DNA from: Antedon mediterranea
Lineage: Eukaryota > Echinodermata > Crinoidea > Comatulida > Antedonidae
Assembly (NCBI RefSeq): GCF_964355755.1
Contig: NC_092671.1
Location: 6,645,001 to 6,709,000, forward strand
DNA: 64,000 nucleotides
Direction: 5' to 3'
Below, piece after piece: positions 258-63,932 of the stretch. The notes beneath the pieces were generated by a model that worked only from the letters and a program-made list of their open reading frames with translations, was not told the origin of the DNA and did not search any database. Each line of letters starts with the position of its first letter. Within the stretch, counting starts at the first letter, position 1. Both the position numbers and the translations under genes were made by a program.

Positions 258-3200
258 CTGAAAAGAAATTAGAATAATAACGTTATTTATTGCCAGTGAA
301 TAGTTCTTGTTGTCGTCTCTAATTCCTTTCTCAGAAAACAGTTACGGTACTAAAAAACGTTATGCTAGCCTATAACAGCTTTCAAACCATTGATAGGATT
401 TAATCTTGTGGGTAGGAAGAATACTTGGATCACTTACCTGCCATTTAAACAATACTAGAAACGTAATATGGTAAAAACCTTTAGATTCAGTACCTGTGTT
501 TTAATATCCCATTACCATAAATTCCCATTTGAATTTTGTTTAAACAAAATTGTTTTGTTTTAATATACAATTTTCCTTGTTTAGTATAACCTGCCTATAT
601 GTCTTAGTTAGGTAAGAAATAGCACATTTTCCCTTTCATACCGTAACAGTGGACCATTGCTCTGGTATCGGTGGTCGTAACCGACTGTATGCCACTAATG
701 TTTTCATTTTTTCCATCGACGGGTGGCCGGATACCTTATCTCCAAACGGTAGCTGATATTCATGGGCATCTAATTGTAAAAATAATATAAAATATGAGAA
801 ATAGTCAAAACGGATTTATCAAAAGTGAAGAGCCTATTTAATTTACATTTTGATCGTATATGGGATATTTATCTAACTCTTTTCTGATCATATCGTCTTT
901 ACCACCGTTTCATAATATTGCAGCGTTATCGCTGAGAGGTGGTTTCTCTCTTTCTGTTACAATTACAAACGGTTACATCAGTCTAGTTTCTCAACCTTCT
1001 GATGCTTGTTGACTGCTATATCTACATAGTTAAATGCTACATTAGTCAATCTTATTTAATATTCATGAAACTTACATCCAATGACGTCACATCTCATCGC
1101 CATCTCCCACAAGATCAAAGCCATTGAGTATGCGTCCATTTGTTTGAAAGCTTCGATATCTCGCAGGTTAACCTTACACTCAAGTGCTTCTGGTGCCATG
1201 TACCTTGGGGTACCAACCTAGAAATAATGGGTACTAATTAATATAGGCCTAATGATGTTTTTTTAACCTTTTACATAAAAAAAAAAGTAAGTTTTTGTTT
1301 TGCAGCGTAACCTTAACGGTGAAGTAAAGAATGACCTACTGAACAGCTGCTTCCTAACGATAGTGGAAAAGTGTTACCAAAGAGTTTTTATTAACTCCTC
1401 ATTGGTGTTACCAACGTTTTCTCTATTATTATAAATCGTTGGTATAATAAAAGCGAACGCGACCTTTGGGCGTGTGCGCTTTCCGTCTCTACGCTTTTCC
1501 GACTGGGTGCATACGCGCGCGTGTATTATGCGCTATGTTGTCAAGACAAGCGTTCTTTGGAAACGTAAACAAAACCTTTATAATATTTCTCTATTAACTG
1601 AAGTAAGATCAAGAGCACTTAACAATTATTTTAAAAGATCGAGTATTCACTATTTATCATTTTTAGTAAATTCCTTAGAAGCAAGTTTAACTAGGTGCAT
1701 TCATCTATTCATTTGTTTATTTCGTATAATAGTATAATAATATAATAATATTATCTACTGTCTGTTTTCAGAAACTTGGGATGGCTCATCCTGTACCTAT
1801 ATTATCACTAGTAAAATCATAATATATAATTTATTTAAATTATAAAACCCCAATTTATGTTTAATTGTTTAACAAACTCGCTGTGAAGCACCCATCATAA
1901 AACGTATAATCATTTGTGAGGCATATAATATAAATGTGGAAAATATGAAACCTTAGTTTATACTGTACCTGGCCATTGTTAGCCATCTCATCGGTAGAGG
2001 ACGTAGGATCGAGTCGAACCGCAAGACCAAAATCTGCTATAGCACATGACCCGTCAGGTTTTACCAGTATATTTGAACTTTTCAAGTCTCTATGAGCAAT
2101 TGGTACTTTCCGCAAACCATTAGGAGAATAATCAGAATGTAGATGAGCAATGCCACGACAGAGCGTCAGACCCATCAAGCAAAATTGTTCCCAATCTAAT
2201 GTGTTAACTTTAATATAGTTCATCAAAGAGCCATTTTCATAAAAAGTTGTAACTATCCACAAATTCCGTTGATAAGCCTGACGTCTTTCTTCAGCAGATA
2301 TAAACCTTACAATGTTTTCATGTGCAAGAGAAACTGACGCGTCTGTGAAGAGGTCTTTCTCAACATTCCATGACGTTGAATCGTAAGAGTGAAACACCTT
2401 GACGGCAACGTCTTTGATCTGATCCCGTTGTTTCCATTCTGCTTTCCATACGGCACCATAGCGCCCTCTTCCAATTATATAGTCTAACGTTATCCTCATA
2501 TTTTGATTATAATCATGAATCGGACTCTCTGGTGGTGTGTCGGCTCCAATAATCTTCTGATCACTTCCTTCCGATGTTATATCAACACTTGTGCTTTCTG
2601 CGTTGCTTGATGGTCTTCCATGTTTATAATCTTCCATAAGACGGCGACGTTGTTGAGCAATTTTTATGCCGAAAAGTGCCAGAATGATCAATATGGTTAA
2701 ACTACCCATTACGATTCCACCAATAACGTAACCGCTTATGTTTTGTCCCACTTTTTGATTAGATATTTTGAGAGTACTGATGGTAGTAGAGTCTAAGAAG
2801 AAACAAAAGACACAATTAGTGACGTCAACATAAAATCTAACAAACGAACATTTTTTTAAGTAAGGCTCGAGATTCTACGATTTCTCCAACCATGCTTAAT
2901 AAGATACAATTCACGACAATGTTCAAACCAGTAAGTTAATATTAACAACTCCCTGTTCAAACGAATTTTTGTTAAACATGCCATGGTAATGTCACAGTTA
3001 TGGATCGAAAATATTAGTTACCTGATAAAACTGTAATTTAATTACAAATAGTCAACCGGAACTCATTGTCTGGATTTCAATGGGTTTCTGGTTAAATTTA
3101 CTGTTTATTTGTCGTTTTATAATTAGTGAAACCATTATTGTTGTTAAATGTTTGGGCGTTGAAACCTAATAACTATTTAAAAACTAGAAAATGGCACATT

Positions 3201-6200
3201 ATATATTCAAAGTCTGATTTTATTTTTCATGTTTTGAGGGACAATCATATGGAAATAAGAAAGAAACAAACTAACCTGAAGAATTTGTACTGTTTTTGTC
3301 CGGTGGAGGTAGTTGGGGTTTTGGTGAAGGTTTGTACCCCTCTGGATAAACTATAAAGTTTGACGTACAATTTGAAACAGCACATTGGCAAATGAAGTCC
3401 CCGTAGTCATGATCAATGAACTCGGAGCACTCGGTATTTCCAGTGTAAATCTCATCTTTGTTATCTATTGGAAAACATCCAGCAAAATTAGAGCTTTCTA
3501 TAACAGTTCCATTATCATGGAATCCCGATACCAGCGTACACTCACTGTCCGCATCGCATTCTGTTAACGGACAATTTGTCAGGTGACATTGCATAATCCC
3601 ATCTTGAATAGTATTACATTGGATGGTACCTGTACCAGCGCATTCCGGGCACCAAATCCTATCGCTGACTTCGATTAGGCTAACTAAAAAAGGAAAACAA
3701 GAAAAATATTTTAAGCATCAGTATGGGTTGATAGCAAAGTAAATGGAATAGATTCTAAGTTGGTTGGCTCAATTGGTTGGCTCATAGTGGAGCTGTAGCT
3801 TAATGAGATTTAGTTTATAAGTTACTCGCTGTTGGATGCGTTTGAAAAAAATATCGATTGAAAATATAGAAATGTTGAGAGTACTGATGGTAGTAGTGTC
3901 TAAGAAAAAACAAAAGAAACAATTAGTGACGTCACCATAAAATCTAACAAACGGAATTTTTTTTTAAGCAAGGCTCGAGATTCTAAATATTTCTTCTCCA
4001 ACCATGCTTAATAAGATACAATTCACGACAATGTTCAAACCAGTAAGTTGTTAATATTAACAACTCCCTGTTCAAACAAATAAACATTTTTGGTAAAATA
4101 CTTAAACAATTTTGGTTGAATATGCCATGATAATGGCATAGTTATGAATTGAAAATATTAGTTACCTGATAAAACTGTAATTTAATTAAACAAATAGTCA
4201 ACCGGAACTCATTGTCTGGATTTCAATGGGTTTCTGGTTAAAAACTTAAATTTACTGTTTATTTGTCGTTTTATAAGGGAAACCATTATTTTTGTTAATT
4301 GTTAGGGCGTTGAAAGCTAATAACTATATAAAAACTAGAAAATGGCACATTATATATTCAAAGTCTGATTTTATTTTTCATGTTTTGAGGGACAATCATA
4401 TGGAAATAAGAAAGAAACAAACTAACCTGAAGAATTTGTACTGTCTTTGTCCGGTGGAGGTAGTTGGGGTTTTGGTGGTGGTTTGTACCCCTCTGGATAT
4501 ACTATAAAGTTTGACGTACAATTTGAAACAGCACATTGGCAACTGAAGTCCCCGTAGTCATGATCAATGGACTCGGAGCACTCGGTTACAGCGTAAATCT
4601 CATCATTTTTATCTACTGGAAAACATCCAGCATAATGAGAGCTTTCTATAACAGTTCCATTATCATGGAATCCCGATAACAGCGTACACTCACTGTCCGC
4701 ATCGCATTCTGTTAACGGACAATTTGTCAGGTGACATTGCATAATCCCATCTTCAATAGTATTACATTGGATGGTACCTGTACTAGTGCATTCCGGGCAC
4801 CAAATACTATTGCTGACTTCGAATAGGCAAACTAAAAAAGGAAAACAAGAAAGAAAATACTTTAAGCATCAGTATGGGTTGAGAGCAAAGTAAATGGAAT
4901 AGATTCTAAGTTGGTTGGCTCAATTAGTTGTCTCATATTGGAGCTGTAGCTTAGTGGTTAGCATAGTGGAGCTGCAGCTTGGTGGTTAGCATGCTTGCCT
5001 TCCAATCCTAAGGTCCGGGGTTCAATCCTGACCTAGTGCCAGGGTTGTAACTCACGACTCTTTCAACTTCATTCCCAAAGCCTCTCAAATGAGACTTATA
5101 ATTTATTCGCTGTTGGATGTGAAAAAAGAATACAGCATTTTATCGTGTCATCTCATTTGAAAGAGATGTAGCATGGACTTGAAGCATTTCCACGGTTCAC
5201 TAGACTAGAAAAAGAGATGAGATTGTTTCTCAACGGTAGTCTCACATTCTCATCCGATTCCAACACTCACTGGATAAATCAAATGAAGATTAAACAAATT
5301 ACTTACACAATTTAACGTGTAATATTTCATTGAACTCATTTGTTATAATTGGCCAGTTACTGTACTAGTTACTGTAGGCCTACAGTACTAGCATTTTACT
5401 CAACACTCCCCTCTTTTTTTTTTCTTTAACGAATTCTAAGGTTTGTTTGACCTCGGTTTGTTTTAGGAAAGTTTGAGAAATATATCTCAAGCTCTTTCTA
5501 CATACACTATCAAAATAGTTTGACAAAAAAGTATGAAGTGCCCAAATATGGTAGTGATATTTCCAAAAATAGTAGGAATATGACATCATCTTTTTTTTGT
5601 CACATAAACTTTGATAGTGTAGATAAGGCTTTAAGATCATCAGTTTATTTTCATTAGTACAATATAGCCTGTATTGTTATCACAATCATTCATAATGAAC
5701 ATCAAAACTTTCAGTTTCCAAGGTTAAAATGGCGGGGCGGAAATTTCAAATGTCATGGTCAAATGATCAATTGGCAAGTATTGGGATTTTATTGGAGGCC
5801 TACATTGAACGACAGACGACGCTTTCCGCATCAGTTCCTGTACAATTTAACATTAGTTATCTCTTAAACTCATAATTAATTTGCCAGACTAAAAAATCAA
5901 GAAGACGTGGATTCATAACTTATAAGGGCCTACTCGTAACGGAAAAAGGAAAACTCAAAATGTAGATCATAAATTTTTTGTGAAACGATACGTTGAAAAA
6001 CCCCTCTCAAACTGAGATTCAAACTCCGAACCTTCTAATTTTACAGGGTTAAGACTGGGTTGTAACAGAACTTCGCTAAACAAAGATATAGCACTAGGAG
6101 GCCACTTTAAAAATCATGGATCATAACTTTTTACGTTTAGGCCTACATTATGGCCCATCGTGAAAGGACTGTGTTTATAGATAGGCCCTATCTACAGTTT

Positions 6201-12200: not shown

Positions 12201-13192
12201 AACAATTGCCGTTTTGCTACATCAGTTAAATTAAGCGGAAAGGTCATGCTAATAATGGAAGTAAATAATATATGAATTGCTTCCCCGAAATAAAAAAAAG
12301 GAATTTATTTCAATCATGTCAAGGTGACAAAATAAATTCACAAAGCTTAGAAGTTCAGAAAACAAATCCTGATAGTACACAAGTATGTAACAATTTCAGT
12401 AAATCATTTGATAATGTCATGCCTAACTAAATACATACATACTTTACCACAATTTCTATGAAATGGGTCGGATGATCAATCATATATGTCGACAGAACCA
12501 TTATTAATTTTACTTCAATGCCTACTCGGGTTACAAAGATGTTAAACGCTTATGGTGTATTTGTTATATTAACCACAGAAATTATTAAAGAATAATGAGG
12601 AATTAGATGTTGGTATCAAGGTGTATGAGTCACGGACTAGAAACAAGTAGCATGTTGGCTTCGTGATACCTTGAAATTTGAATAACAACAATTATGAAAT
12701 ATGAAATTGGAAAGACCAAAGGGAACTTATATTCACAGCAGTTGACCCAACCTTAACATAAGAAATTTGAAACACATAGTAAAACGAACCAATAACATCG
12801 GAATAAGGAACATATTTTTTCCAAGAAAGGGAAGGGCTTTCCGGATATAAATGCAGTAAATTACTAAAATCCAATGAATGAATGGAAAATTTAAATACAT
12901 TTTAGTTTCCCCGTAAAGAATCTCACAGATATAGGCCTAGAGTAATTTTAATTCAAAAGGGAAAATCATGGTAACTTTTTTTCAAATATGTCACAACAAA
13001 CGACGATCACATATTATCATATAGGTGGTATTATAATCGTTTTGAAAATGGATCACTCTTGGTCATTAATATTATAGGCCTATTATATAGTTCGTCAAGT
13101 AAGTAGTAGACCTACGGTAGCCTGAAGATGTCATACTTACCAACAATTATCCCTACAATAAGCAATGTATAAATCCTCTGATGCGAATACAT
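93..13192 (-). CDS. TGFBR2: TGF-beta receptor type II-like serine/threonine kinase (spliced, minus strand)
   Basis: Single-pass type II receptor that would bind TGF-beta-family ligand and phosphorylate a type I receptor. Exons in transcript order: 13192-13141, 4831-4427 (ligand domain B), 3683-3276 (ligand domain A), 2792-1969, 1217-1076, 769-642, 257-93 (TGA at 95-93). With one ligand exon the product is 572 aa, close to vertebrate TGFBR2; with both it is 707 aa. Numbering with exon A: signal peptide about 1-24, Cys-rich ectodomain to about 130, Pro-rich stalk, TM about 174-197, glycine loop 261-268, catalytic Lys 285, HRDLKSSN 387-394, DFG 407-409, APE 436-438. The motif MANNGQVGT, the SMALILWEM segment and the 824-bp TM/N-lobe exon match TGFBR2 better than activin or BMP type II receptors. 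All junctions are GT-AG and in phase. Odd: the usual ECWDxDPEARL reads [11 protein letters not shown] and the preceding Cys is Ser. The 3' UTR runs off the left edge. Confidence 0.88.
642..769 (-). CDS. TGFBR2: TGFBR2-like exon: kinase C-lobe (YQLPFGDKV segment)
   Basis: A 128-bp exon, acceptor TTAG at 772-770 and donor GTATGA at 641. It encodes the insert conserved in type II receptors ([20 protein letters not shown]), then LRPPIPEQW, equivalent to the RPEIPSFW region of TGFBR2. It ends exactly on a codon. Confidence 0.9.
1076..1217 (-). CDS. TGFBR2: TGFBR2-like exon: activation loop and APE motif
   Basis: A 142-bp exon starting [13 protein letters not shown] and running through the [14 protein letters not shown] helix. 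Acceptor TAG at 1220-1218, donor GTAAGT at 1075. It begins in phase 0 after the preceding exon and leaves one nucleotide for a split Tyr codon. Confidence 0.92.
1969..2792 (-). CDS. TGFBR2: TGFBR2-like exon: transmembrane segment and kinase N-lobe to DFG
   Basis: An 824-bp exon from the acceptor TTCTTAG at 2795-2793 to the donor GTACAG at 1968. It encodes the last stalk residues, a Gly/Ile/Leu-rich transmembrane helix, a basic stop-transfer (QQRRR), an acidic juxtamembrane linker, the glycine loop, the VAVK lysine, the HRDLKSSN catalytic loop and ADFG. It ends at NNGQ, so the activation loop continues in the next exon. Its first 25 bp were copied into the 3.9-kb duplication junction. Confidence 0.93.
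3276..3683 (-). CDS. TGFBR2: TGFBR2-like ligand-binding exon, copy A (downstream copy)
   Basis: A 408-bp exon with the same splice signals and the same 1-1 phase as copy B. It carries all the ectodomain cysteines and ends in a Pro-rich stalk with NSTNSS, a potential N-glycosylation site. It splices in phase to the TM/kinase exon at 2792 (codon G|AC, Asp). An alternative acceptor 4 nt inside, at 3679, would break phase. Whether A and B are used together, alternatively or one alone cannot be told from genomic sequence. Confidence 0.87.
3788..3840 (+). repeat. Internally deleted copy of the tRNA-derived SINE
   Basis: The start matches the SINE head (GGAGCTGTAGCTTA) and jumps directly to its tail (TAGTTTATAAGTTACTCGCTG). 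It lies at the junction of the ligand-exon duplication. Confidence 0.6.
4427..4831 (-). CDS. TGFBR2: TGFBR2-like ligand-binding exon, copy B (upstream copy)
   Basis: A 405-bp exon bounded by a TTTTTAG acceptor and a GTTAGT donor, phase 1 at both ends. It encodes a Cys-rich three-finger-type ectodomain: the WCPEC start, the [10 protein letters not shown] segment and the CQCAVSNC terminal cysteine box correspond to the TGFBR2 extracellular domain, followed by a Pro-rich juxtamembrane stalk. It is nearly identical to copy A 1.15 kb downstream. Differences include LLSG for LVSG, SSHYAG for SSNFAG and a shorter EIYAV loop. It has no stop or frameshift, so it appears functional. Confidence 0.85.
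4938..5120 (+). repeat. tRNA-derived SINE, with a duplicated head
   Basis: A tRNA-like head with an A-box region (TAGCTTAGTGGTTAGC) and a B box (GGGGTTCAATCCTGA), then a tail with the CTAGTGCCAGGGTTGTA block and the CGCTGTTGGATGTG end. The first 30 bp occur twice. A second copy with the same tail lies at 27909-28075, so this is a dispersed family rather than a tRNA gene. Confidence 0.75.
5370..5387. repeat. Perfect 18-bp palindrome centred on TAGGCCTA
   Basis: TACTGTAGGCCTACAGTA is self-complementary over its whole length. It is the longest perfect extension noticed of the octamer that recurs through the window. Confidence 0.8.
5489..5633. repeat. Palindromic MITE, CTCTGTCTACACTATCAAA family, copy 1
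   Basis: The left end matches AAGCTCTNNCTACA..ACTATCAAA and the right end TTTGATAGTGTAGATAAGGCTTTAA. Between them lie CAAATATGGTAGTGATAT and a TGACATCATC core. About twelve copies of this family lie in the window. Ends begin near TTTAAAGCT, compatible with insertion at TTAA or TA; no transposase is encoded. Confidence 0.8.
7425..7560. repeat. Possible retroelement end with CATTT repeats
   Basis: TTTATTTCATTTCATTTCATTTATTTATTT is followed by GACCAACAAAACATAATATACAATG and a unique-looking segment. The pattern resembles the antisense tail of a non-LTR element, as does 19387-19500. No reverse transcriptase is present. The class is a guess. Confidence 0.3.
8471..8502. repeat. CCTTTA short tandem repeat
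   Basis: Four to five units of TACCTTT in a row inside the long intron. Confidence 0.8.
9677..9700. repeat. TA dinucleotide microsatellite
   Basis: An uninterrupted run of alternating A and T in the long intron. Confidence 0.9.
13141..13192 (-). CDS. TGFBR2: TGFBR2-like exon 1: start codon and signal-peptide core
   Basis: On the minus strand an ATG at 13192-13190 opens 17 codons, [17 protein letters not shown], then one G and a consensus GTAAGT donor. The hydrophobic run continues across the junction into either ligand exon (VSLIEVS or VCLFEVS), giving a plausible cleavable signal peptide. The phase (1) is exactly what both ligand exons need. The choice rests on phase, donor and hydrophobicity, not on homology. 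It implies an 8.3-kb first intron. A different first exon elsewhere is possible. Confidence 0.62.
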
Positions 13193-45243: not shown

Positions 45244-47585
45244 GTTTGAATAAAAATGTTCCCTTGTATCCGTTAACCTGAATATCATTAGATGAATTAG
45301 AAAACATATCCTCACGTACATTGGACCTTCTGTGAGGTTATTTTTTTAATTCTAATTTGTAATCAAACTGCCAGTATGTATAGTATACCTGTCACTAATA
45401 GTAATGATGTATTATAATCTGTCCTATCATTAAGTATAGTACTAGTAGACATTTGTAGGATATGTGGATATATTTGGTCTGTATACTGACAGAGTTTCAA
45501 CTCTGGAATGGGTAAGTGGGGGGTGGGGAGGGGGTAGAAGTTAAGGGTTGGATGAGGAGCTAAACTTTACAGTCAAATCATTCCATTATTATAGTGAATA
45601 TTTCTGTATTTTATTCAAGTTGATTGAAATCAAATTAATTGTGTAATTTTGGTACAATAATTTCAATTATGTATTGGGTTGCAAACCAAATAAATTATTT
45701 AAACAAAAATTACAATTTCACGTTTTCTTTGTGTTGAATTAAAATAAAACGTTTCTACAGTATACTAAATAGGCCTTCTGTATTATAATCATATTAAATT
45801 GTCTTGTCATAACCAAAAACATAGGCATACATGAACATTTCAATTCATGATTAACATATATAAAGGGTTTCAAATGCCTACTGCATTATCAGATATGATT
45901 TCCTCCAATCCAATGATTTTCATTATGTAAGATTGGAAAAGCACAAACAATTTATTCAGGCAGACTATTTATATGATTATGACACAATATGCCTAAGTAT
46001 TAATATTTACAGAGTATTGAAATAAAGAACGTAGAGACAACTCATCGTTGAAACTCAGCATATCTCATTTATTTAAACGAATGAGGAGGAGACATACGAT
46101 TTGAACACAATATCAGTGTCAGTAGCGACCTTGCGTTTCCAGATGCAGCAAGCAGCTAAGCAGCTATTGATTACAACAGTCATTCTGGTGTGCATTCTTA
46201 AATATATGTTTCTGAGCGTGCCCCCAACGACTTCAATGAAGAGAACATTCAGTGTACAGTTTGATTACTGTACATTATAAATGGTTACTATAATTTGGCA
46301 GATTTGGCGTCCCATACATGTATGTATGTTTGGTTTGTTGTTTTTTTAGTGTTTATAGAATGAATGAGGAAGTGATACGAAAAATTGGAGATTTTAAGAA
46401 TTAAGATTTCTGAATTCTGTACCAAAAGGTAGTGGACTTATATTTTAGATGTGCTTGAATACTATACATTGACCTATAATTTATTATCAAGTTAAAACAT
46501 TACTTGCTCAGATTTTTAAGCTAGGCCCTAGTTAGGCTAGTACTACTAGCTAGGCCTAGTAGCTAGCTAGCTAGTCTAGGCTAAGTACAGTAGGCTCGAC
46601 TTGGTACCCTCTGCATGCACCATGGACCCCACCCTAGTTGTTGTGTAGCCTAGGATAATCCAAGAGGTGATATCCATGGTATTATTAATACAGTAGTATA
46701 TTTGTAGTAAACTGGTGTTATTATACAGTATGCCTATTAGGGATTATTTAGCTTTTAAGAAGTTTCAATCAAGTTCATTCAGTTCAGTTTATCGGCACGG
46801 TTAATAATAACAGTGACACTGCTTTTGTATTTCTTTAAGTATTATTACCGTGCTAATTAATAATATTTGTGGTGGCTATAAAATTTGTCCATTGTTTCAA
46901 ATCTGGAAGGTCAATCGTGTGTCTGATACTTGTCTTTTTCTATTAAAATTATCAATCGTATACAGTGATTAGCTTATCATGCTGTCCAGTTTGGTAACTT
47001 ATTTGATGTATGGAACATATTAACATAATATTTTAGCCGATCACAGATAAAGATACCGGATATTCATTCGTTAATTTACTGATAAATTATTTTTTTATCT
47101 TTCTTTATCGTGATTATATTCGACAGCCTATTTTTGTTAATTGAATCACAAGATAGATTCGTGCAATTGTAACTGTGCTTGTTTTAATTTGGTCTTACTT
47201 TGTGGTAGGTTGTGTGTATAATTGTTCTCCATTTTAATATCAAAATAAAAAGCTAACAAATATAGATACTGTAGTACAGTATGTGGTTATTAATTATGAA
47301 TAGTAAAATAATTACTTATAATAACATGGAGTAAAGAATGATAATAATAAGTAAATTACCTGAATTCTGTGGGTTTGCTGTTTTTATCTTGTTGTATACG
47401 GCATTGTTTGTACGTGACTGTTACTGTAGATTTGTGATCGCACTTGCATGCCTCACTTGACAGTAGTCGCTCACTCAAAATTTGCAGTGAACCTATACCT
47501 ACTGTACATCATTATTATGATAAGCTATAGTGTAGTATAAGTTTTGTTGTTTATCAGGAAAGACGAAAGAAAGAAGGGGAGTAGA

Positions 47586-53363
<5,778 letters not shown>

Positions 53364-53477
53364 TTGTGTAACCAGCGTGTGATTCAGATTTAACTGCTTG
53401 AGATAAATTTCCTGATGATTGATCAACTAGCATTCATGTTTCAAAGTTCCAGTCATCCATTTGTAAAAAGTACAGTA

Positions 53478-53735
53478 CCTGATGAAGAAGTCTACCTGAT
53501 GAAGAAATGTACCTGATGAAGAAATGTACCTGATGAAAAAGTCTATCTGATGAAGAAGTATACCTGATGGAGAAGTGTATTTGATGAAGAAGTGTATCTG
53601 ATGAAGAAGTGTATCTGATGGAGAAGTGTATCTGATGAAGAAGTGTACCTGAAGGAGAAGTGTATCTGATGAAGAGGTCTACCTGATGGAGAAGTGTATC
53701 TGATGAAGAAGTTTATCTAATGAAGAAGAAGTCTT
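53478..53735 (+). repeat. 17-bp minisatellite in the MyD88 3' UTR
   Basis: About 15 imperfect copies of ACCTGATGAAGAAGTGT or ATCTGATGGAGAAGTGT between the stop codon and the likely poly(A) signal, so it should be present in the mRNA. Confidence 0.9.
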
Positions 53736-54019: not shown

Positions 54020-56350
54020 GTAATAGGATATATTACAGGATTTTTTTCAAAAAATGGCCATAATATCGACTTGTAAAATTAAATTAATAGGGTTGAAATT
54101 TGACTAAAAAATTAATTTTATAGTTGATATTTTGGCAAAAAAATTTAAATGTTTACCTTTTTATTTTTTAACATAACTGGTTACTATATGAGAATTTGAG
54201 ATGCGCTGACTCACATAATATGTTCTGAGCATGTTATCTCAATATATATTTCTGCGCATGTTTATTATGCTATAGTAACCATTTATGTCAAAAACTAGTT
54301 ACTACAGCACAATTGACATGCGCAGAACCCATTATTCGTCTCTGCGCATGTTTATTATGCAATAATAACCATTTATGTGAAAAAATAAAAAGGGTCGAAA
54401 ATCGGCCATTTTTCGACCTTTTTATTTTTCGATAAAACTGGTTAATATAGCACAATTAACATGCGCAGAACCCATTATTTGCCTCTGCGCATGTTTATTA
54501 TGCTAGTAACCATTTATGTCAAAAACTGTTTACTATAGCACAATTGACATGCGCAGAACCCATTATTCGTCTCTGTGCATGTTTATTATGCAATAGTAAC
54601 CCTTTATGTGAAAAAATTAAAGGGTCGAAAATCGGTCATTTTTCGAAAATTACCCTGTACTATAGTAGGCCTACAGGGATTTTTTCCAAAAATGGCAAAT
54701 TTTCGACCTTTTAATTTTTCGATAAAACTGGTTACTATAGCACAATTAACATGTGCAGAACCCATTAGTCGACTCTGCGCATGTTTATTATGCTATAGTA
54801 ACCATTTATGTCAAAACTAGTTACTATAGCACAATTGACATGCGCAGAACCCATTATTCGTCTCTGCGCATGTTTATTATGCAATAGTAACCATTTATGT
54901 CAAAAAATAAAAGGGTCGAAAATCGGCCATTTTTCGAAAGTTTACCTGTACTATATATAGTACAGGGATTTTTTTTTTAAATGGTCAATTTTCGACCTTT
55001 TTATTTTTCGATAAAACTGGTTACATAGCACAATTAACATGCGCAGAACCCATTAGTCGACTCTGCGCATGTTTATTATGCAATAGTAACCATTTATGTC
55101 AAAAAATAAAAAGGGTCGAAAATCGGCCATTTTTTGAAAATTTGCCTGTACTATAGTACAGAGATTTTTCCAAAAAATGCGCAGAACCTATTATTTGTCT
55201 CTGCGCATGTTTATTATGCTATAGTAACCATTTATGTCAAAAACTGGTTACTATAGCACAATTTACATGCGCACAACCCATTATTCGTCTCTGTGCATGT
55301 TTATTATGCAATAGTAACCATTTATGTCAAAAAATAAAAGGGTCGAAAATCGGCCATTTTTCGAAAATTTACCTGTACTATAGCACAGGGATTTTTTCAA
55401 AAAATGGCCAATTTTCGACCTTTTTATTTTTCGATAAAACTGGTTACATAGCACAATTAACATGCGCAGAACCCATTAGTCGACTCTGCGCATGTTTATT
55501 ATGCTATAGTAACCATTTATGTCAAAAACTGGTTACTATAGCACAATTGACATGCGCAGAACCCATTATTCGTCTCTGCGCATGTTAATTATGCAATAGT
55601 AACCATTTATATCAAAAAATAAAAAAGGTCGAAAATCGGCCATTTTTCGAAAATTTTCCTGTACTTTTCAAAAAATGGTCAATTTTCGACCTTTTCATTT
55701 TTCGATAAAACTGGTTACTATAGCACAATTAACATGCGCAGAGCCCATTAGTCGACTCTGCGCATGTTTATTATGCAATAGTAACCATTTATGTCAAAAC
55801 TGGTTACAATAGCACAATTGACATGCGCAGAACTCATTATTCGTCTCTGCGCATGTTTATTATGCAATAGTACGGTAACCCTTTATGTCAAAAAATAAAA
55901 GGGTCGAAAATCGGCCATTTTTCGAAAATTTCCCTGTACTATAGTACAGGGATTTTTTTTTTAAACTGGCCAATTTTCGACCTTTTTATTTTTCGATAAA
56001 ACTGGTTACTATAGCACAATTACCATGCGCAGAGCCCATTAGTCGACTCTGCGCATGTTTATTATGCAATAGTAACCATTTATGTCAAAAAATAAAAATG
56101 GTCGAAAATCGGCCATTTTTCGAAAATTTTCCTGTACTTTAGTACAGAGAAATTTTCGAAAAATGATAAACTTTCGACCCTTTTATTTTTTGACAAAACT
56201 GGTTACTACGACTCTACAAGATGATTATAACGCAATATATGCGCATTTATGGCAATATTATTGCATAACAATTGAAGTTTAAAAAATCCATATTTTTGCC
56301 ATTTCGAAAAAATCCTTGTACTAGTACAGGTACATTTTCGAACATTGTTC
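54020..56350. repeat. Nested-palindrome satellite, about 7 units of ~300 bp
   Basis: Each unit contains a pair of inverted blocks (GGTCGAAAATCGGCCATTTT against AAAATGGCCAATTTTCGACC) around CCTGTACTATAGTACAGGG, then one or two blocks of CTGGTTACTATAGCACAATT with inverted ATGCGCAGA..TCTGCGCAT arms, then AATAGTAACCATTTATGTC. Units start near 54390, 54617, 54910, 55100, 55335, 55625, 55900 and 56095. Small open frames inside are by-products of the repeat. Confidence 0.92.
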
Positions 56351-56755: not shown

Positions 56756-57990
56756 GTAAGTAAGGCCTACCTTCAATAACATACGAATAGTTTTAATTTA
56801 AAGACAATGATTTATATTACAAAGATTAAAATAAGGAAGAGGAAAAGTATGTTTTAACAACGAATAAGTGTTATTTTTGATGTTGTATTAATTATTGCTG
56901 TTAGATGATGATAAAATAGAATAAGACAACAGATTAAATGTTATTCATTTTTGTTTTAAGTATAAAAAGATTTATGATTGTTTTAGATGACACGTATACA
57001 ACTACTACCAACATTGCCAGTACATTTGGAACTATATTCAACGAACCAGATAACAAATGGCTGATAAAGTTACGGTTTGTTGTCATAGGCATTGGAATTA
57101 TGCTGAATGTTGGCGTCACTGCAGTTTTCTTGTACATAAAAATGTACAAGAAGTCTTTACTACATGGCTTAATATTTCAGCAGTCGGTAGTAGATCTATT
57201 TGGTTGCTGTATGTTTCTGTTCTTTTACAACCAAGATGCGCCAGACGGAACAGGAGGGTGTGTCTTCTGCAAAGCTCGAGTACTGTACTGGTTCGGAACG
57301 TATACCTCAGTATACAACCTTGTGATGATAACAGTTGAACGTTACATTGCAGTGGTACACCCTCTGACGTACAGAAACAGAAATATTGGCAGAAAATCAG
57401 GATTATTTTACACAATTCCGTACATTATCGGTTTCTTGATCTCCTTTCATCTTGCCATAATCGCCGATGCCAACGAAGAGCTTCCGGGAGAGTGCCGTTA
57501 TAATGAGTCCAGTAAAGCGGTCAGTGTTCTTTCCGGATTGCTGCAGTTTCTTCTGATATTCTTCCTACCTGCTGGTTTTATGATCTTCTGCTACTCACGC
57601 ATTCTGTCAAAAATACATAGAAAATCTCAAGAGAATAAGCAGCATGTTCGTGGCAGAAAACAACCGTATGTCTCCATAAAAAGAAATCTTGTGTTTACGA
57701 TGTTAATCGTGGTTATTGCATTCATTATCACTACAGCACCAAATACCATTATGTACCTAATTTATAATATCTGTCACTGCTTTGCTTTCAGTACCATCAT
57801 TGAGCACGAATTTACAGTTCTCCTTAGCACGTGTAATATGTGTATTAACCCTATCATATATGGGGCAAAGATGGACAATTTCAGAAGCGGTTTGCGCAAA
57901 ATTTGGCGTCGGATATTTAGATTACGGTATGTCGGTGATGAGTCTAGCGCAGTGAATACTTCTCAAAGTATCACAAATACTGGTGTATAA
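56752..57990 (+). CDS. Rhodopsin-class GPCR, tandem paralogue 1
   Basis: A seven-transmembrane receptor, probably for a peptide or small ligand; family not identified. Proposed exons: ATG G at 56752-56755, then 56987-57990, 335 aa starting MDDTYTTTTNIAS. Class A marks: N42 in TM1, D71 in TM2 (SVVDLFG), Cys96 and Cys171 as the extracellular disulfide pair, ERY 119-121 ending TM3, P196 in TM5, P253 in TM6, NPIIY 289-293 in TM7, then DNFRSG as helix 8. Unusual: TM4 lacks the common Trp, and TM6 has TTAP where CWxP is usual. It has an extra Cys93 absent in its paralogues. The C-terminus NTGV fits a class I PDZ ligand. Alternative: unspliced start at ATG 56974 (MIVLDDTY). Its 5' flank and intron are nearly the same as those of paralogue 2. 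Confidence 0.88.
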
Positions 57991-59294: not shown

Positions 59295-60695
59295 GTAAGT
59301 AAGGCCTACCTTCAATGACATACGACTAGTTTTATTTTAAAGACAAGGATTTAGATTACAAAGATTAAAATAAGGAAGGGGAAATTATGTTTTAACAACC
59401 AATATGTTATTTTGATGTTGTATATCTATATAATATTGAGGCAGTTTTAACTTATTTGAATGTATGTTTATATGCCCTGCCTATGCAGCTCTTTGATTTA
59501 TACTGTATTATAGGCCTATTGTCTTTCTATGCATCAATCCTGGTTATAGACGACTTTGGTTGCTCAGGTTTAATTGATGCGGAAATAAAATAAGACAATA
59601 AGAGACAAAAAGGAAAAAAAATCACTTTGCAACAAGTTAATCATTGTTTTAAGTATAAAAGAATGTATGATTGTTTTAGATATGGATGACACGGATACAA
59701 CTACTGACGTTGCCAGTACATTTGGAACTATATTCAACGAACCAGATAACAAATGGCTGATAACTTTACGGTTTGTTGTCATAGGCATTGGAATTATGCT
59801 GAATGTTGGCGTCACTGCAGTTTTCCTGTACATAAAAATGTACAAGAAGTCTTTACTACATGGCTTAATATTTCAGCAGTCGGTAGTAGATCTATTTGGT
59901 TGCTGTATGTTTCTGTTCTTTTACAACCAAGATGCACCAGATGGAACAGGAGGGCGTGTCTTCTGCAAAGCTCGAGTACTGTACTGGTTCGGAACGTATA
60001 CCTCAGTATACAACCTTGTGATGATAACAGTTGAACGTTACATTGCAGTGGTACACCCTCTGACGTACAGAAACAGAAATATTGGCAGAAAATCAGGATT
60101 ATTTTACACAATTCCGTACATTATCGGTTTCTTGATCTCCTTTCATCTTGCCATAATCGCCGATGCCAACGAAGAGCTTCCGGGAGAGTGCCGTTATAAT
60201 GAGTCCAGTAAAGCGGTCAGTGTTCTTTCCGGATTGCTGCAGTTTCTTCTCATATTCTTCCTACCTGCTGGTTTTATGATCTTCTGCTACTCTCGCATTC
60301 TGTCAGAGATACATAGAAGATCTCTAGATAATAAGCAGCATTCCAATAGTAGGAAACAACTGTATGTCTCCATAAAAAGAAATCTTGTGTTTACAATGTT
60401 AATCGTGGTTATTGCATTCATTATCACTACAGCACCAAATACCAGTATGTACTTAATTTATAATATCTGTCAATGCTTTGCTTTCAGTATCATCATTGAA
60501 CACGAGTTTACAGTGCTCCTTAGCACGTGTAATATGTGTATTAACCCTATAATATATGGGGCAAAGATGGACAATTTCAGAAGCGGCGTGCGTAAAATTT
60601 GGCGACAATTAATATTACATTTAGGCCTACACAGTGTTGGAGATGAGTCGACTGCAGTAAATACATCACAAAATAAGTCGAAAACAAGTATTTAA
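59291..60695 (+). CDS. Rhodopsin-class GPCR, tandem paralogue 2
   Basis: Proposed exons 59291-59294 (ATG G) and 59680-60695, 339 aa starting MDMDDTDTTTDVAS. From TM1 to TM5 it is almost identical to paralogue 1, including at third positions. It differs in the third intracellular loop (SEIHRRSLDNKQHSNSRK) and in the C-tail, which is instead like paralogue 3 (GVRKIWRQ, GDESTAVNTSQN). C-terminus KTSI fits a PDZ ligand. Conserved marks: ERY, Cys pair, NPIIY. The intron is longer by insertions near 59420-59570. AATAAA at 60832-60837 may be its poly(A) signal. Alternative unspliced start: ATG 59667 (MIVLDMDD). Confidence 0.88.
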
Positions 60696-62444: not shown

Positions 62445-63932
62445 GTAAGTAGTAGTAGTAGTAGTATGAGATGTTCTAACTAAAAACAATGGGTTACATT
62501 ACAAGTGATAGAGCAAGCGGGTGTGGGGTAGGTCACCCCATACTTTGTGTCACTATTCATTTAAAAATATGTAAAATTTCGTTGCTTTCAAATAATAACA
62601 AAAATACGGATAGATACAAAATATATACCTAAATATCTTTAGCCTATTCCTACCATTTCTTGTATAATTACAAACAAACAATAGATTATGTTACAAAGAT
62701 TAATCAACTGTTTTGTAAATTTATCGAAAAATGTGTTAAGTTCCTGTAATAAAAATGTCACATTAAATAACACGGGTTGTTTTAATTACAAACAACGGAT
62801 TATAATGTGCTATCAATATTATCAAGTCAATCGGAATACACAATAATGTTTATGTTTAAAAACAAACACGACTTGCATAATATAACTTGAAAAAATGATT
62901 GTTTTAGATACGATGATTAATGGAAATGATACAAATACTATTATTGCAAGCAGGCCTACGTCTGGAACTATAAACAACGAACGTGATCATGGATGGCTGA
63001 TAACGTTACGGTTCGTCGTCGTAGGATTTGGAATTCTTTTGAATGTTGGCGTTTCTGCAGTTTTCTTTTACATAAAAATGTACAAGAAGTCTTTACTACA
63101 TGGCTTAATCTTCCAGCAGTCTATTGTTGATTTACTCGGTTGCTGTACGTTTCTATTCTTCTACAACCAAGATGCACCGGATGGAAGAGCTGGACGTGTC
63201 TTCTGCAAAGCTCGAGCGCTAAACTGGTTCATAACGTATACATCAATTTACAATCTTGTAATGATAACAGTTGAGCGATACATTGCTGTGGTACACCCTC
63301 TGACGTACAGAAACAGAAATATTGGCAGAAAATCAGGCTTATTTTACACAATTCCGTACATTATCGGTTTTTTGATCTCCTTTCATCTTGCCATAATCGC
63401 CGATGCCAACAAAGAGCTTCCGGGAGAGTGCCATTATAATGAGTCCAGTAAAGCGGTCAGTGTTCTTTCCGGATTGCTTCATTTTCTTCTGATATTCTTC
63501 CTACCTGCTGGTTTTATGATATTCTGCTACTCTCGCATTCTGTCAAAGATACATAGAAAATCTCAAGAGAATAAGCAGCATACTAGTAGTAGGAAACAAC
63601 CATACGTGTCCATAAAAAGAAATCTTGTGTTTACAATGTTAATCGTTGTTATTGCATTTATCATCACTACAGCACCAAATTTCATCATGTACCTAATTTA
63701 CAATATCTGTCACTGCTTTGCTTTCAGTACCATCATTGAGCACGAGTTTACAGTGCTTCTTAGCACTTGTAATATGTGTATTAACCCTATCATATATGGG
63801 GCAAAGATGGACAATTTCAGAAGCGGCGTGCGTAAAATTTGGCGACAAATATTATATTTAGGCCTACACGGTGTTGGAGATGAGTCGACTGCAGTAAATA
63901 CATCACAAAATATTTCGAAAACAAGTGTTTAA
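62441..63932 (+). CDS. Rhodopsin-class GPCR, tandem paralogue 3
   Basis: Proposed exons 62441-62444 (ATG G) and 62908-63932, 342 aa starting MDTMINGNDTNTII. It is the most diverged in the N-terminus and TM1-TM3 (FGILLNVGVSAVFFY, CCTFLFF, ARALNWFITYTSIYN), yet nearly identical to the others from ERYIAVVHPLTYRN through TM5. It shares helix 8 and C-tail with paralogue 2 and ends KTSV, a PDZ-type terminus. Its 3' flank (GACAATGAAAGGTATCCTCC) matches paralogue 2 and runs to the window edge. Alternative unspliced start: ATG 62895 (MIVLDTMING). Confidence 0.88.

Follow-up and report, generated by a model that had tools for sequence, protein, structure and literature searches.

The first 13.2 kb of the window, i.e., of the whole 64,000-nucleotide stretch of Antedon mediterranea DNA analysed here, is occupied on the minus strand by a TGFBR2-type receptor gene, in which the exon for the ligand-binding domain (LBD) was probably doubled by a recent, intragenic tandem duplication. 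Based on the sequence and on analogy with characterised two-LBD forms of TGFBR2, we infer that both copies, termed exons A and B, are probably included constitutively, so that the gene would give rise to a two-headed type II receptor, together with the ligand binding, splicing and signalling expected of it.

All exons of this gene were located on the minus strand. Exon 1 (13141–13192) carries the start codon and the signal peptide and ends in phase 1 with the donor TTG/GTAAGT, from where it splices in frame to either A or B. Ectodomain exon A (4427–4831; 405 bp, phase 1-1) encodes 12 mature cysteines and would be membrane-distal in the A+B protein, and ectodomain exon B (3276–3683; 408 bp, phase 1-1), with 86% amino acid identity to A, would be membrane-proximal. 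They are followed by an exon of 824 bp for the juxtamembrane region, the transmembrane (TM) helix and the N-terminal part of the kinase (1969–2792), two further kinase exons (1076–1217 and 642–769), and the last coding exon (93–257), whose stop codon ends at position 93. Translation of exon 1, A, B, the TM exon and the three kinase exons revealed one open frame of 707 aa, and joins with a single ectodomain were in frame as well (571 aa with A alone, 572 aa with B alone). The layout read from the translation is that of a type II receptor, with a signal peptide, a cysteine-rich LBD (two in the A+B form), one TM segment and a kinase. The first-pass annotation had proposed a tandem in-frame duplication of the ectodomain exon, and this was borne out by the phase 1-1 exons, the open A+B frame and the intact splice sites. 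Its lengths, phases and splice signals for both exons were confirmed, and its junction coordinates (13141, 4831, 4427, 3683, 3276, and 2792) are correct, as the exons read as one 707-aa frame.

The kinase clearly groups with TGFBR2 by sequence (2e-76), 20 orders of magnitude ahead of the next family, TGFBR1 (4e-56), which was followed by ACVR2B (6e-52) and BMPR2 (2e-47). Together with a TGFBR2-like ectodomain of 12 cysteines, this agrees with the earlier assignment to TGFBR2. The cysteines occur in TGFBR2 order, starting with CxxC and ending with CxCx4C, and are spaced by 2, 7, 9, 4, 4, 5, 20, 14, 12, 1, and 4 residues compared to 2, 6, 5, 3, 5, 6, 16, 19, 14, 1, and 4 in human TGFBR2, whose sequence was checked letter by letter against 1KTZ from residue 8 onward. 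A likeness of this degree was reached in 5 of 100,000 random placements (P 5e-5). Pfam model PF08917 (ecTbetaR2) gave no match above the cut-off, neither in a genome-wide search nor with exons A and B; since PF08917 is a detection model and not a biological definition, and the ectodomain has diverged, the gene was filed by its kinase and cysteine pattern. A PDB sequence search with the ectodomain resulted in no significant match. With respect to the three-finger fold of TGFBR2, a structure model of LBD A, predicted from an alignment whose sole other row was B, reached a pLDDT of 50, with no meaningful match in Foldseek. Because the ectodomain lacks a significant Pfam or PDB match and the structure model is too poor, we can only infer ligand binding. 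A genome search in which the best candidates were scored revealed neither a second TGFBR2-like kinase nor a third ectodomain copy; the next-best kinase (L007) matches ACVR2A/B. Weak ectodomain matches on contig C7 (E=8) were dismissed as chance, and no further decayed LBD copies were detected within the window.

The similarity of A and B is far above chance, with one repeat spanning 300 nt at 96% and another 267 nt at 94%. Alignment of both copies showed that the duplicated unit comprises about 1.15–1.25 kb and exceeds the interval given in the first-pass annotation, as homology runs from the upstream intron through the exon and the downstream intron into the first c. 32 bp of the TM exon. A tandem event of this extent within the gene would have doubled the single LBD exon of the one TGFBR2-type gene detected. 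With approximate borders, copy A of the unit, containing the upstream intron, exon A, the intron and the 5' bit of the TM exon, lies at 3867–5135 and copy B at 2760–3866 (both minus strand). A truncated 5' copy of the TM exon is thus left between A and B (3868–3899, minus strand), differing at three of 32 bp from positions 2792–2761. Its acceptor is kept and scored 9.36 compared to 8.75 for the true TM exon, on a simple custom matrix with vertebrate-type frequencies. Neither a usable donor nor a poly(A) signal was found for it ahead of exon B. The truncated copy represents a possible cryptic splice site. Upstream of exon A, a tRNA-like SINE fragment was also seen (c. 4950–5090, minus strand; GGATTGAACCCCGGACC at 5012–5028), which is absent upstream of B and was either inserted after the duplication or deleted from copy B.

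Exons A and B differ by 21 substitutions in 405 positions (5.2%), and the copies of the downstream intron by 25 in 480 (5.2%) or, in a second alignment, by 28 in 512, giving an intron range of 5.2–5.5%; exon and intron have thus diverged equally. Nineteen of the 21 exon substitutions are nonsynonymous and two synonymous, with one codon indel in addition. The neutral expectation derived from the intron was 17.4 nonsynonymous and 4.5 synonymous changes, from which neither class differed significantly. Positive selection was considered and rejected, since the dN/dS of 2.5 lacked significance (Fisher P=0.27) and both classes are in line with the intron. Of indels, 5.5 events would be expected in the exon from the intron and one, in frame, was seen (P=0.026), and none of the 21 substitutions introduced a stop or removed a mature cysteine (P about 0.06–0.08). 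Judged from the sequence, frame and disulphide scaffold appear to be kept while the surface changes freely; for the latter, one pair of exons fits relaxed constraint as well as diversification. Because amino acid divergence equals the intron rate, the protein itself is under weak constraint. A clustering of the differences in one loop, as suggested earlier, was not upheld, as the densest window of 20 aa holds seven of them (P = 0.23 under random placement) and they are spread over the exon. The claim that the cysteines are untouched holds for all 12 mature ones and fails at the first complete codon, which encodes Cys in A and Ser in B and belongs to the signal-peptide/linker region. When A and B were aligned with the human receptor by their cysteines, they showed no difference in the stretches corresponding to human SITSI, EKPQEV, and SSDE, which we take to contribute to the surface in contact with TGF-beta.

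With respect to splicing, the acceptors of A and B are identical over the scored stretch, as are the donors (CAG/GTTAGT). Together with exon lengths divisible by three and the intron of 743 nt that separates A from B, these features favour inclusion of both exons. Since both are phase 1-1 exons and neither has the stronger splice sites, we expect them to be joined in the default transcript. We looked in the DNA for a block to joint inclusion, namely a short intron, a frame shift, RNA pairing or a mismatch of splice class, and found none; inverted repeats that could pair the intron with the exons scored no higher than chance. The predicted protein of 707 aa would consist of signal peptide, LBD A, a proline-rich linker of 33 residues, LBD B, TM segment and kinase, and single-LBD forms would be minor products of exon skipping. 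By analogy with the characterised two-LBD TGFBR2, such a two-headed receptor would bind more ligand, by inter-ligand capture, and would buffer or fine-tune SMAD2/3 output.

An improbable alternative to the two-headed receptor is that each transcript takes either A or B, in mutual exclusion or depending on tissue, which would lead to two receptors with one head each that prefer different ligands. This would suit the fact that either exon alone joins exon 1 and the TM exon in frame and that amino acid differences dominate the divergence of the exons, and Drosophila babo makes such a choice with three fourth exons (PMC12124520). However, given the 743-nt intron and splice sites of the same class and strength, no mechanism for it is visible, inverted repeats being at chance level, and joint inclusion stays in frame, so that no filter by nonsense-mediated decay (NMD) would act. 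Moreover, the equivalents of SITSI, EKPQEV, and SSDE at the ligand-binding edge known from human are the same in both exons, and single-LBD forms are marginal in chicken and horse (PMC13187141). We regard it as slightly less probable still that the fresh A/B pair yields a regulated mixture of two-headed, A-only and B-only receptors, possibly with a secreted A decoy made through the acceptor of the truncated TM-exon copy, that differ in ligand preference. If true, the gene would be the type II equivalent of baboon at an early stage after duplication, in which the cysteine frame is fixed and the amino acid sequences diverge as fast as neutral DNA. For a secreted decoy ectodomain as partial output, the chances seem very slim. 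It could result from joining A to the truncated TM-exon copy, where the frame stops after 43 residues, or from retention of the intron after A, where a stop follows one Gly; in read-through, the frame ends before any membrane segment, and the truncated copy's acceptor outscores that of the real exon. Such a transcript is nevertheless probably an NMD target or not made, because B is preceded neither by a poly(A) signal nor by a good donor (the best scored -0.99 and would shift the frame).

An assembly artefact, in which two haplotypes of a gene with one such exon were placed end to end, is as unlikely in our view as the regulated mixture. Echinoderms are highly heterozygous, with 2.21% in one brittle star (PMC11959729), and the copies differ by about 5%; yet the intron divergence of about 5.4% plus seven indel events exceeds the heterozygosity of that brittle star. 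At the join, which falls within the TM exon, c. 25 bp are unmatched, as in a true duplication breakpoint. Furthermore, the assembly comprises 18 contigs, the unit is short relative to long reads, and the kinase occurs in a single copy. We give little credence, less than to an artefact, to one copy being a neutral leftover that is normally skipped or non-functional in a gene working with one LBD. The divergence at the intron rate, the youth of the duplicate and the nonsynonymous and synonymous counts, neither significantly off the intron, are compatible with it; against it, frame, cysteines and splice sites are intact in both copies, and an in-frame exon that is not skipped is included by default.

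The first-pass annotation had regarded a double-headed receptor or a choice of ectodomains as novel, which does not hold, since both receptors with several LBDs (PMC13187141) and alternative ectodomain exons in baboon (PMC12124520) are already known. Twelve independent LBD multiplications were described in vertebrate ACVR1, BMPR2, and TGFBR2 (PMC13187141, Nat Commun 2026), with LBD-duplicated TGFBR2 in chicken, Perissodactyla, zebrafish tgfbr2a, pike, herring, salmonids, and amphibians; the two-LBD TGFBR2 predominates in chicken and horse and is the sole form of zebrafish tgfbr2a. Multi-LBD receptors bind more ligand with SMAD output unchanged or blunted, and a two-LBD human TGFBR2 bound more TGF-beta1 while early SMAD2 activation was blunted (PMC13187141). 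The doubled exon is thus a further instance of recurrent TGFBR2 LBD multiplication with known precedents. It resembles the vertebrate cases in the in-frame tandem duplication of an LBD unit and in two LBDs preceding one TM segment and kinase, and chicken and horse in having no backup paralogue, as far as found. In contrast to them, the host is not a vertebrate, so that the event is independent, the LBD is one exon instead of the exon pair of vertebrate TGFBR2, and a truncated TM exon is left between the copies. The linker comprises 33 residues by the definition of PMC13187141, whereas known linkers mostly have under 24 (44 in herring), and at least 36 were predicted to be needed for a single receptor chain to bind a ligand dimer on both of its sides (PMC13187141). 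As this natural linker adjoins the predicted limit, it could be used to test the prediction of bivalency.

Triplication of an LBD exon in medaka ACVR1, cited in PMC13187141, likewise multiplied a single LBD exon in tandem, though in a type I receptor and to three copies. Drosophila baboon, with isoforms A/B/C, has alternative exons each coding for an ectodomain joined to a shared kinase (PMC12124520), but it is a type I receptor with distinct exons, reported ligand pairing and isoform-specific splicing, whereas the pair described here is young and without a sign of exclusion. Extracellular-domain duplications of sponge and oyster receptors (Suga 1999; Herpin 2005), to the extent that they are cited in PMC13187141, are also invertebrate cases in the same receptor family, from different phyla. 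A full-text literature search, with subscription papers mostly outside its scope, gave no echinoderm case of LBD duplication. Our finding extends the recurrent multiplication of the TGFBR2 LBD to an echinoderm, adding to the cases from vertebrates, sponge and oyster that PMC13187141 cites, and is marked by its youth (about 5% divergence), the absence of a detected backup gene and the doubling of one exon instead of an exon pair.

Elsewhere in the window, an ORF at 47541–47927 (plus strand) was judged by eye to resemble a death-domain protein. ORFs composed of short tandem peptide repeats at 53434–53712 (minus strand) and 54548–55588 (plus strand), with the units SIRYTSSSDTLLHQ... and AQLTCAEPIxRLCACLLCYSNHLC..., probably represent repetitive DNA instead of genes. 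At 56938–57990, 59589–60695, and 62886–63932 (plus strand), three single-exon ORFs of about 350 aa each lie in tandem; they are very similar to each other, look like rhodopsin-type GPCRs, a family named by eye, and would represent a local gene expansion. Two tektin exons (L020 and L022) matched chains of 8SNB, presumably a sea-urchin sperm doublet microtubule, far better than the other tektin chains compared, which we take to be mammalian (2.7e-62 compared to 1.4e-38, and 4.7e-51 compared to 4.7e-39), as would be expected of an echinoderm genome. A search of the assembly for COX1 gave no match. Of its 18 contigs, eight or more have sizes of 22–41 Mb.
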